Shown piece by piece: positions 56,263 to 58,967 of a stretch of 64,000 nt of DNA. The position numbers and the translations under genes are program-made. Position 1 is the first letter of the stretch. Every line of letters begins with the position of its first letter. Where the stretch lies: assembly GCA_001898405.1 (NCBI GenBank), contig MKTW01000019.1:1368-65367 (forward strand). The letters are read 5' to 3'. Below the pieces are notes generated by a model. The model was not told the DNA's origin, did no database searches, and saw only the letters and a list, made by a program, of their open reading frames with translations. The DNA comes from Sphingobacteriales bacterium 44-61 (lineage in GTDB: Bacteria; Bacteroidota; Bacteroidia; Chitinophagales; Chitinophagaceae).

Positions 56263-57084
56263 ATGCCCCTCTTCATATCCTCCCTCAACTCCGGCTCCAA
56301 CGGCAATTGCTACTATATCGGCAATGATCACGAAGCAGTGTTGATAGATGCCGGCATTTCCTGCAGGGAAACAGAAAAAAGAATGAAGAGGCTGGGGCTG
56401 GAAATGGATAAGGTAAAAGCCATTTTTGTTTCTCATGAACATGGCGATCATATCACCGGCGTGCCGGGGATTTCAAAAAAATATAAGTTACCGGTTTATA
56501 TTACTCCTGCCACTTTGCACGGCAGTCGGCTTCCACTGGAACCATCACTGGTCAATTCATTCGAGCCTGGCAAACCGGTAAACGTTGGTCAATTATCAGT
56601 GATTCCATTCCGTAAATATCATGATGCAGTTGATCCGCACAGTTTTGTTATCAGCCAAAATGAGGTGAGGATCGGTGTATTCACTGACATCGGCAGATGT
56701 TGTGATGAAGTAAAAAAATATTTCAGGGAATGTGATGCTGTATTCCTGGAAAGCAATTACTGTCATGATATGCTGGAAAAAGGTAGATATCCTTATCATC
56801 TTAAAAGAAGGATCAGTGGAGGCGAAGGGCATCTGTCCAATATGGAAGCCCTTGAATTGTTTTCCAAATTCCGTGGGCAGCAACTTAAATACCTTATTCT
56901 TTCCCACCTGTCAAACAACAACAATGATGCAGAACTTGTCGACCGCTTATTTACAGCACAGGCAGGCAGCACCAATATCGTTGTTGCATCGAGACATAAA
57001 GAAACAGGGGTTTATCATATCAGCAAAACATCACCCGCAATACAGGATAAGGAAGTAATACAGGTACAACTTTCACTCTTTTGA
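56263..57084 (+). CDS. MBL-fold metallo-hydrolase (YycJ/WalJ-like)
   Basis: A 273-residue cytoplasmic metallo-beta-lactamase-fold protein starting MPLFISSLNSGSNGNCYYIG. The metal motif is SHEHGDHITG (H58, H60, D62, H63), with H633-type later ligands in FRKYHDAVDPHSF and LSHLSNNNNDAEL. The sequence resembles the YycJ/VicX branch, whose members are 5'-3' exonuclease-like or linked to cell-wall and DNA-repair control. It stands alone between the glycan locus and a long non-coding region. Confidence 0.9.
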   Translation: MPLFISSLNSGSNGNCYYIGNDHEAVLIDAGISCRETEKRMKRLGLEMDKVKAIFVSHEHGDHITGVPGISKKYKLPVYITPATLHGSRLPLEPSLVNSFEPGKPVNVGQLSVIPFRKYHDAVDPHSFVISQNEVRIGVFTDIGRCCDEVKKYFRECDAVFLESNYCHDMLEKGRYPYHLKRRISGGEGHLSNMEALELFSKFRGQQLKYLILSHLSNNNNDAELVDRLFTAQAGSTNIVVASRHKETGVYHISKTSPAIQDKEVIQVQLSLF

Positions 57085-57420
57085 TCTGAAGAGATTATCA
57101 CTTAGGCAACACTAAGTATAAACTATTAGAAAGGATTTATCAAAAAATATACTGACCGTTGTTTTACGAAGTAAATATTCTTATGCAGATATATTGCATA
57201 CATAATGTCTTTTAATGTCATTATATACAACTGGAACAGCAACACGCATATAAATATCCTTCTATAGATTTTCGACTACACTGCAATCATAATCTGTTCT
57301 ATTTTCTGCGACATTTCATTATCGTTTCTTTGTATCAGCAAACAGGTTAAACCGTCCACTGCATACCTGTTAAATACAAGGCTCTATTTAGTTCTTTTTA
57401 AATTAATGTCCATACCTTTG

Positions 57421-57527
57421 AAAAAAATGTCCAATCTCTTTTGAAGAGTTTATCCAATCCTTTCGAAAAGCATTCTTCAGGTATGAAGGAAATTACAAGC
57501 CCTGGTGCAAGCCAGGGCTTATTATTT
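57421..57527 (+). ncRNA. Candidate small RNA A
   Basis: TACCTTTG at 57413-57420 is a consensus -7 box. About 100 nt later a perfect 9-bp hairpin (AAGCCCTGG 57497-57505/CCAGGGCTT 57512-57520) is followed by ATTATTT. Between them lies a small stem TTCTTCA/TGAAGGAA. The transcript also contains a 19-codon frame from ATGAAG at 57484, so a leader peptide is an alternative. The exact 5' end is a guess. Confidence 0.5.
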
Positions 57528-57709
57528 GCAGAAGGGAAGTGAGCGCATCTATAGAATTTCGACTACACATCAATCATAATCTGTTCTATTTTTTACAGGA
57601 TGTTTCAGTTGTTTCTTTGTAATATAAAATTGATGCTAATCGTTGGTTAATGGCAATCCGTACTCTTTTAACAGCATCGTGAGCAATAAAATTTAAATCC
57701 ATTCCTTTG

Positions 57710-57797
57710 AAAACGCTAATCCATCCGCCGATTGATAACCGATTCCTCAGTTGGTATGAAGGAAAATTACAGCCCTGGCTTTTGCCGGGGCTTTTTT
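57710..57797 (+). ncRNA. Candidate small RNA B (paralogue of A)
   Basis: TTCCTTTG (57702-57709, one mismatch to the -7 consensus) precedes about 80 nt that end in the hairpin AGCCCTGGC/GCCGGGGCT (57771-57779, 57784-57792) and six T. It shares the GGTATGAAGGAAA block with copy A. The T tail is stronger than in A. Confidence 0.5.
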
Positions 57798-58157
57798 ATG
57801 ACAGCAATAAAACAGAAGCGGGTAGTGGAAACTACCCGCGGGGATCACATGAGAAAACTGTTACTGGTAAGTAACAAATCATTCTTCTCTTATATAAATA
57901 AACAGACTGGTATCCGGCACATATATGAAGCAAAACTAATCGCATTAAATACACCGGCAAGCCCTTTCCATCTCATTCAGCATATTCTCCCACTGAAATG
58001 AATAAAAACAATGCTTAAGTGGGATAGGAGGCATTTTCAGCATTGCAGATAGTTTTTGCACTTCAGCTGCCCATTTTCTCATTTCAAGCATCTTCCTGTA
58101 AGAGAAGGTATTTATTTGCTAATTTTTGTTTCTTATTAATAACGAACTTTATTATTT
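57798..58157. other. Intergenic region with one hairpin
   Basis: About 360 bp ahead of the SnoaL-like gene. An 8-bp hairpin GCGGGTAG/CTACCCGC (57818-57825, 57832-57839) has no T run. A plus-strand frame (57732-58001) crosses the sRNA B terminator and has no recognisable protein features. I see no other gene. Confidence 0.5.
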
Positions 58158-58967
58158 ATGGAGGTAAAAAAGCTGATCATATTACCTGCTGTTCTTCTTG
58201 CCAATTTCTCTTTTGCCCAATCTGGACAGGAAGTTGCATCTGCCGAGCTTGCGTTTGCCAACACAGCTAAAATCAAATCCACTAAAACAGCTTTCCTGCA
58301 ATACATGGACAGTACCGCAGTGGTCTTTGACAAAGGAAATATCTACAACGGTATTCAACACTGGAATAAACAGGAAGAAACAAGCGGCAAGCTTTTATGG
58401 CATCCTTCTTTCTTTGCCATGTCGGCTTCAGGCGATCTTGGCTTTACGACCGGCCCCTGGGAATACCGGGCTTCTATGCAAGACAGTGTAACAGGCAGTG
58501 GTCAGTATACGACCATTTGGATAAAAAATAAAAACGAAGGGTGGAAATTCCTGGTCGACATGGGTGTCTATTATAAACCATCCCTGTTTCATCAACAATC
58601 CCAGCAAGAGTTCAATACATTAATACCTTCTAAAGAGCCGGTAGATATACTGTCTGTTGAGCAAAAATTTATCAGGGAATTTGAGGGAAATGGGCCTGCT
58701 GCTTATAAAGGCCTGCTCACTGAGAACTCCTGGTTAAATATTGACAGGAAGCAACCCTTGCAAACAGCAACTGCTGTTTTATCTGCACTCGCAGCACTTC
58801 CTGCAAAGATGGCCTTTACACCTGTTGCAGGCGGCATGTCTGCTGCCAGGGATATGGCTTATGTATACGGCACTATTCAATATGAAGGGAAAAAAGAGAA
58901 TTATTTAAGGATCTGGGTGAATACAGCAACAGGATGGAAGATATTGCTGCAGGTGATCAAGAATTAG
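58158..58967 (+). CDS. Exported SnoaL/DUF4440-like (NTF2-fold) protein
   Basis: A 269-residue exported protein (leader MEVKKLIILPAVLLANFSFAQ). The first half has the NTF2-fold pattern: VASAELAFANTAKIKSTKTA, FLQYMDSTAVVFDKGNIYNG, LGFTTGPWEYRAS and QYTTIWIKNKNEGWKFLVDMG. The second half repeats the same outline (SVEQKFIREFEGNGPAAYKG, DMAYVYGTIQYEGK, LRIWVNTATGWKILLQVI). Two NTF2-like units in one chain bind small ligands in related proteins; no catalytic residues can be assigned. It is convergent with the DinB gene. Confidence 0.85.
   Translation: MEVKKLIILPAVLLANFSFAQSGQEVASAELAFANTAKIKSTKTAFLQYMDSTAVVFDKGNIYNGIQHWNKQEETSGKLLWHPSFFAMSASGDLGFTTGPWEYRASMQDSVTGSGQYTTIWIKNKNEGWKFLVDMGVYYKPSLFHQQSQQEFNTLIPSKEPVDILSVEQKFIREFEGNGPAAYKGLLTENSWLNIDRKQPLQTATAVLSALAALPAKMAFTPVAGGMSAARDMAYVYGTIQYEGKKENYLRIWVNTATGWKILLQVIKN

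Follow-up and report, generated by a model that had tools for sequence, protein, structure and literature searches.

The intergenic gap at 57085-58157 of the window (the whole 64,000-nucleotide stretch of DNA analysed here, from Sphingobacteriales bacterium 44-61) probably contains two tandem paralogous standalone small-RNA genes, referred to below as copies A and B. This reading of the sequence rests on duplicated blocks, on a sister pair in place in a second species, on selective conservation without a shared closed frame, and on terminators. The gap is 1073 bp long and holds both copies on the plus strand. It is flanked on the left by a gene with a metallo-beta-lactamase fold (56263-57084, PF12706) and on the right by a DUF4440 gene (58158-58967, PF14534), which is the next plus-strand gene. 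Inspection of the interval from 57084 to 58158 revealed no credible gene, in agreement with the earlier note. Each copy has an intrinsic terminator on the proposed strand, and the pair is intergenic, with no closed frame common to the copies. The suggestion in that note of a duplicated sRNA family is supported by the conserved order and orientation in the second species, the plus-strand terminators and the lack of a shared closed frame. We conclude that the pair is a genuine genus-level candidate for sRNA genes, of an ordinary kind and with a new sequence.

Copies A and B have a common layout: a 5' block ending in TTTCTTTG, a diverged middle, one or more repeat units, an exact GGTATGAAGGAAA block and a plus-strand terminator. 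The 5' blocks (57261-57334 in A and 57548-57621 in B, plus strand) are 80% identical over 74 nt and are spaced by 287, so that the tandem copies 287 bp apart with common blocks, terminators and diverged middles, as first described from the letters alone, are borne out. We presume the upstream block of A to be a promoter region. The element CAATCATAATCTGTTCTATT is exact in both copies (57284 and 57571), and the CCTTTGAAAA motif is found at 57415 in A and at 57704 in B. The GGTATGAAGGAAA block lies at 57480-57492 in A and 57753-57765 in B (plus strand); because its spacing is 273, as against 287 for the 5' blocks, copy B is 14 nt shorter than A between the blocks. Units with the pattern TCC-N-ATCC-N-TTTGAAAA are repeated across 57407-57472 of copy A (plus strand; about three by eye, two of them with exact TTTGAA), and a single unit is located at 57696-57713 in copy B, also on the plus strand. 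The predicted terminator stems lie at 57497-57520 in A and 57771-57792 in B; with their tails, the plus-strand terminators extend over 57497-57527 and 57771-57797. Five terminator-like sites were observed within 56800-58400, both strands summed, compared with 1.2 expected from shuffles. Local alignment of A with B scored 87, and the maximum among 300 dinucleotide shuffles was 29; the similarity of the two copies is far beyond chance.

Among the 58 relatives searched, a convincing match to copy A was found in one, Terrimonas ginsenosidimutans NA20, which is the only other genome of the genus in the sample. There the pair has identical order and orientation and is flanked by the equivalent two genes: the metallo-beta-lactamase proteins are 70% identical between the species, and the equivalence of the DUF4440 genes was judged by eye. 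Between the window and T. ginsenosidimutans, identity is 92.6% in the 3' part of B (57716-57796), compared with 68.9% in the neighbouring gene and 42-50% in the four spacers. Two further values were set aside, namely 65.1% for the 3' block of A, which was misaligned owing to the longer sister copy, and 45.6% for the DUF4440 gene, inside which the sister locus sequence stops. Local scores exceeded the maxima of 300 shuffles for both copies (223 versus 29 for B0-B1; 88 versus 33 for A0-A1). The GGTATGAAGGAAA block is identical in all four copies, the terminator stem is likewise present in all four, and each of the four zero-mismatch places of AATCATAATNTGNTCTAT across the two genus genomes is at the pair loci. 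The 3' parts group by position (B0-B1 88.8% and A0-A1 79.5% identical; cross pairs 57.9-74.3%), so the duplication appears to predate the split between the species; no such grouping is seen in the upstream blocks. The earlier note had made it a test of its reading that related genomes keep the blocks; they do so, although, within the range of the search, in this genus alone. That there are just two adjacent copies per genome, seen across one species split, would suit a small repeat element, or a duplication of intergenic DNA that has no function. This explanation is highly unlikely, however, given the selective conservation against diverged spacers, the identical place in two species and the fact that no further copies of the pair were found in either genus genome.

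The distance from AATCATAAT to CTTTGTA is 43 nt in all four copies of the two species. We infer that the TTTCTTTG box, 43 nt below AATCATAAT (57325-57332 within the upstream block of A, plus strand; 57612-57619 in B), is a better promoter candidate than the CCTTTGAAAA box, which is a poor one because it belongs to the repeated unit. A passage of a published study (PMC7366714) gives TAnnTTTG as the consensus of the Bacteroidetes -7 box. The TTTCTTTG box has one mismatch to this consensus and no -33 TTTG is visible above it; an internal TTCCTTTG of two copies matches TAnnTTTG equally well. Comparison of the window with T. ginsenosidimutans identified two segments of B, ATCGTTGGTTAATGG and AATCCGTA, that are conserved between the TTTCTTTG box and the unit. 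From these segments and the fixed 43-nt spacing, we place the transcript starts near 57335 and 57622. Together with ends set by the terminators, this gives predicted plus-strand RNAs of about 190 nt for A (57336-57523) and about 175 nt for B (57623-57796). Each RNA would have a separate promoter immediately below the upstream block, where TTTCTTTG resembles TAnnTTTG, with one activator perhaps common to both promoters, and each transcript would stop at its terminator. About 20 nt of the promoter region of copy A (TGCGACATTTCATTATCGTT, window 57306-57335) recur elsewhere in the same genome (G000:C11:93703-93733, L038; E 7e-4). This match was dropped as a related copy, as it is without counterpart in the copy of the sister species.

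The consensus box noticed earlier in copy A is present: TACCTTTG (57413-57420, plus strand) fits TAnnTTTG exactly. It is found in the window's copy A only, inside the repeat units, where it is one unit of the repeat, and the other three copies have no TA at the aligned place. These observations speak against TACCTTTG as the promoter of an RNA of about 100 nt. RNAs of this length, starting from the CCTTTGAAAA box and leaving the 5' blocks as distant regulatory sites, would account for the exact fit of TACCTTTG, yet they are quite improbable, as ATCGTTGGTTAATGG and AATCCGTA, upstream of the box in B, are kept between species as transcribed sequence would be. In place of the transcripts of 80-110 nt proposed before, a length of about 175-190 nt, with the start inferred from the TTTCTTTG box, is more likely.

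None of the closed ATG frames in the four predicted RNAs exceeds 18 codons, and none is shared between copies. The spacings of TTTGAA are 23, 43, 69 and 31 nt, three of the four not being multiples of three. All four copies carry ATG-AAG-GAA within the invariant block, directly before the terminator, and copy B has a sub-threshold match to Leu_leader (20.9 bits, cut-off 50). Both would suit a regulatory leader in which translation of a short peptide from this ATG governs the terminator. However, the ATG-AAG-GAA frames enter and run through the terminator stem, ending after 19, 81, 27 and 26 codons. Moreover, no co-directional gene lies directly behind the terminator of B, where a convergent element is found instead; past that element, the next plus-strand gene begins at 58158, 361 nt behind the terminator. 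Paired leader peptides, the other possibility raised in the earlier note, are for these reasons extremely unlikely, and we read the ATG of the invariant block as a chance feature of a conserved RNA element.

Folding of RNA A (57334-57525) gave a z-score of -2.71, with one of 200 shuffles as stable. The z-scores of window B (-1.76) and of the sister's A (-0.70) and B (-1.46) are not exceptional. When RNAalifold was applied to the two-species alignment (A5), only the terminator was kept, and none of its nine pairs change on both sides. A long-range pairing of CAUACCUG with CAGGUAUG, of 8 bp in the window's A and 10 bp in that of the sister, was rejected: a distant 8-bp pairing also occurred in 57 of 300 and 76 of 300 shuffles, and B has none. 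At gathering scores, Rfam matched the whole window once, at a tRNA elsewhere. At E up to 5, the region had 14 sub-threshold matches, the best being anti-hemB at the 3' end of B (24.8 bits, cut-off 49.5, E 0.0024); we take these matches for a shared terminator shape. We also considered that the copies might be 6S RNA paralogues, acting as RNA polymerase mimics. Their length fits and the CCTTTG units resemble the -7 box; furthermore, RF00013 is without a match at E up to 0.01 in either genus genome, and it also missed the Bacteroides control genome, so 6S RNA in these bacteria may escape the model. Still, the region has no 6S match at E up to 5, and 6S RNA would be expected more widely than in two of 394 family genomes, the number with matches above 36.4 bits to a model of the pair's 3' end (R1, described below). 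We regard this as extremely unlikely.

R1 is a covariance model of the 3' end built from the four copies. It scores these copies, which are its own training set, at 80.7-85.5 bits, and the best other place in 394 Chitinophagaceae genomes at 36.4 bits. Searching the family in this way, as the earlier note had suggested, recovered the pair at more than 80 bits in two of the 394 genomes, both of this genus, but nothing above 36.4 bits outside it. Within the sampled genomes, only this genus (two genomes) has the pair. At E up to 0.1, R1 has matches in 322 of the 394 genomes; the weak ones were rejected as homologues and taken for terminators, the GGTATGAAGG block being present in 0 of 28 fetched loci (L053-L080). 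At 15 metallo-beta-lactamase loci from other genera, searched with 1.5 kb on each side, no R1 match exceeded 10.7 bits. The exact block pattern, searched over the GTDB collection, is found in T. ginsenosidimutans and three other records. The latter were rejected: the pattern is within open frames of 202, 450 and 512 aa, with R1 scores of 13.1 bits, 8.3 bits and no match at E up to 1. No match to the block pattern was found in viral contigs, and none to window positions 57200-57850 among plasmids. Three extra GGTATGAAGGAAA places in the two genus genomes were also discarded, as each is within an unrelated long open frame. The upstream core with one or two mismatches has 20 places in the two genomes; six were read, five inside open frames and one not.

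How such RNAs would act is a matter of more tentative interpretation. It is possible, although we consider it rather doubtful, that they act in trans, with the UCC-N-AUCC-N-UUUGAAA units and GGUAUGAAGGAAA pairing with mRNAs or binding an RNA-binding protein. The units are predicted to be mostly unpaired, and unit and GGUAUGAAGGAAA are the candidate contact segments. The number of units varies, from one in the window's B and about three in its A to about seven in the sister's A, as counted by eye (exact TTTGAA in four of these), which suggests a putative dosage of binding sites. The unit pattern with up to two mismatches occurs at 38 and 50 places in the two genomes, compared with 18 and 15 for a reversed control; this excess may reflect codon usage. 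Unit complements were counted at 84 other places in the two genomes, of which 27 were read (30 of the 88 unit-pattern places had loci, and three of these, L100, L102 and L103, are the pair itself). No target emerged from the 27 places read of the 84, as the unit complement covers a start codon at none of them; three of the 27 precede frames of 214-479 aa, lying 62-69 nt before the first ATG.

Tandem twin sRNAs are known from OmrA/OmrB and PrrF1/PrrF2. Like these, the pair consists of adjacent duplicates with conserved ends and diverged middles, but there is no family match, the PrrF model scoring 17.7 bits on the region against a cut-off of 90. CsrB and RsmZ titrate CsrA. Like the pair, those RNAs repeat a short motif a varying number of times within one molecule, although the unit of the pair is another motif, without GGA, and copy B has one unit only. 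The copies could similarly be RNAs that titrate a protein, their repeated UCC-N-AUCC-N-UUUGAAA units binding several molecules of one RNA-binding protein and the unit number setting the capacity. The roughly seven units in the sister's A, the three and one in the window, and the presence of RRM_1 proteins (four and six domain matches in the two genus genomes) are consistent with such titration. We nevertheless think it unlikely, because GGA is absent from the unit on the proposed strand, a single unit is present in copy B and the unit number differs between species.

Within the same phylum, two studies of Bacteroides thetaiotaomicron describe the binding of the sRNAs FopS and GibS by the RRM protein RbpB (PMC11697453, PMC7366714). 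These sRNAs resemble the pair as paralogous, intrinsically terminated RNAs with long single-stranded stretches (PMC11697453, PMC7366714). As described there, however, the FopS family numbers 14 members, scattered and with a 5' seed, and GibS is encoded by one gene only, whereas the pair has two tandem members with an internal repeat. The class of RbpB, RRM_1, is encoded in both genus genomes, and such a protein would be a candidate partner of the pair. Neither FopS nor GibS is among the Rfam matches at gathering score or at E up to 5, a result that depends on release 15 containing such a model.

The convergent element beside copy B, outside the pair, appears to belong to a different RNA family. 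It runs head-on to the pair on the minus strand (57874-57806), where a small hairpin and UUUUCUCAUGUGA are accompanied by a terminator stem whose loop is UUUC. The first relatives surfaced among the R1 matches. A strict pattern was found in four of 147 genomes (control 0), the window's own genome and T. ginsenosidimutans not being matched. We built a model (R2) from nine sequences; one is the window's element (57806-57874), a type-1 member of this UUUUCUCAU family that scores 60.0 bits as a training sequence. At E up to 1e-4, R2 matched 81 of 117 Chitinophagaceae genomes, seven of which supplied training sequences, and 70 of 100 genera. Across the phylum at E up to 1e-6, it matched four of 198 genomes, all four Chitinophagaceae. 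The UUUUCUCAU box is present in all 30 fetched best R2 loci. An alignment of 34 matches, 33 of them distinct, was fitted to the model; 99.3% of its stem cells are paired, all nine pairs change on both sides, and none of 500 shuffles reached the observed values. Rfam gave four matches on ten family loci, all below cut-offs, and three of them overlap the element (MicX, E 0.0033; PsrR1, 0.37; L20_leader, 0.44). The element appears to be an sRNA-like, multi-copy family of Chitinophagaceae.

Comparison of the family loci (L139-L172, L067, L070, L072 and L173-L179, plus window 57806-57874) distinguishes two types, CAUGUG and CAUAAGCAGUUAGUUUUGGU. A sigma-54-like TGGCAC-N5-TTGC motif (9-10 of 10 positions), 15-120 nt upstream, was found at seven of 16 type-2 loci versus none of 19 type-1 loci; two untypable loci and the window's own copy were left out of this count, and the motif had been seen in L072 and L144 before counting. 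The type-2 (UUUUCUCAUAAGCAGUUAGUUUUGGU) loci with the motif are L144, L072, L160, L170, L174, L175 and L176, and L175 is a type-2 copy with a sigma-54-like promoter on contig C4 of the window's genome. The type-1 loci L148, L151, L154 and L159 have in common a further upstream stretch, CAACTCATCCCTGGATCA ... AGTTGCG, which could form a 5' hairpin, as could GTTACTTACCAGTAAC in the window. Pairing at start codons is a putative mode of action, suggested by the complementarity of the UUUUCUCAU box to AUGAGAAAA, in which Arg-Lys follows the start codon.

In a further reading, which we consider very unlikely, the two RNAs of the duplicated cassette would form a genus-specific device: their expandable units, in differing number, would titrate an RNA-binding protein or counteract start-codon-pairing sRNAs such as the UUUUCUCAU member, and would thereby tune a family-wide sRNA network. 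Direct pairing of the 3' block with the neighbour's UUUUCUCAUGUG was rejected, since its best duplex energy was equalled or bettered in 216 of 500 (A) and 336 of 500 (B) dinucleotide shuffles. Since the pairing is no better than in shuffles, only the protein route would be left for such a device.

No literature on small RNAs of Chitinophagaceae was found in the open-licence literature. The tandem pair with its variable internal repeat would provide a compact system in which to test for the use of titrating RNAs in these bacteria. The neighbouring element is the more widely relevant result, its RNA family being found in most sampled genera of Chitinophagaceae.
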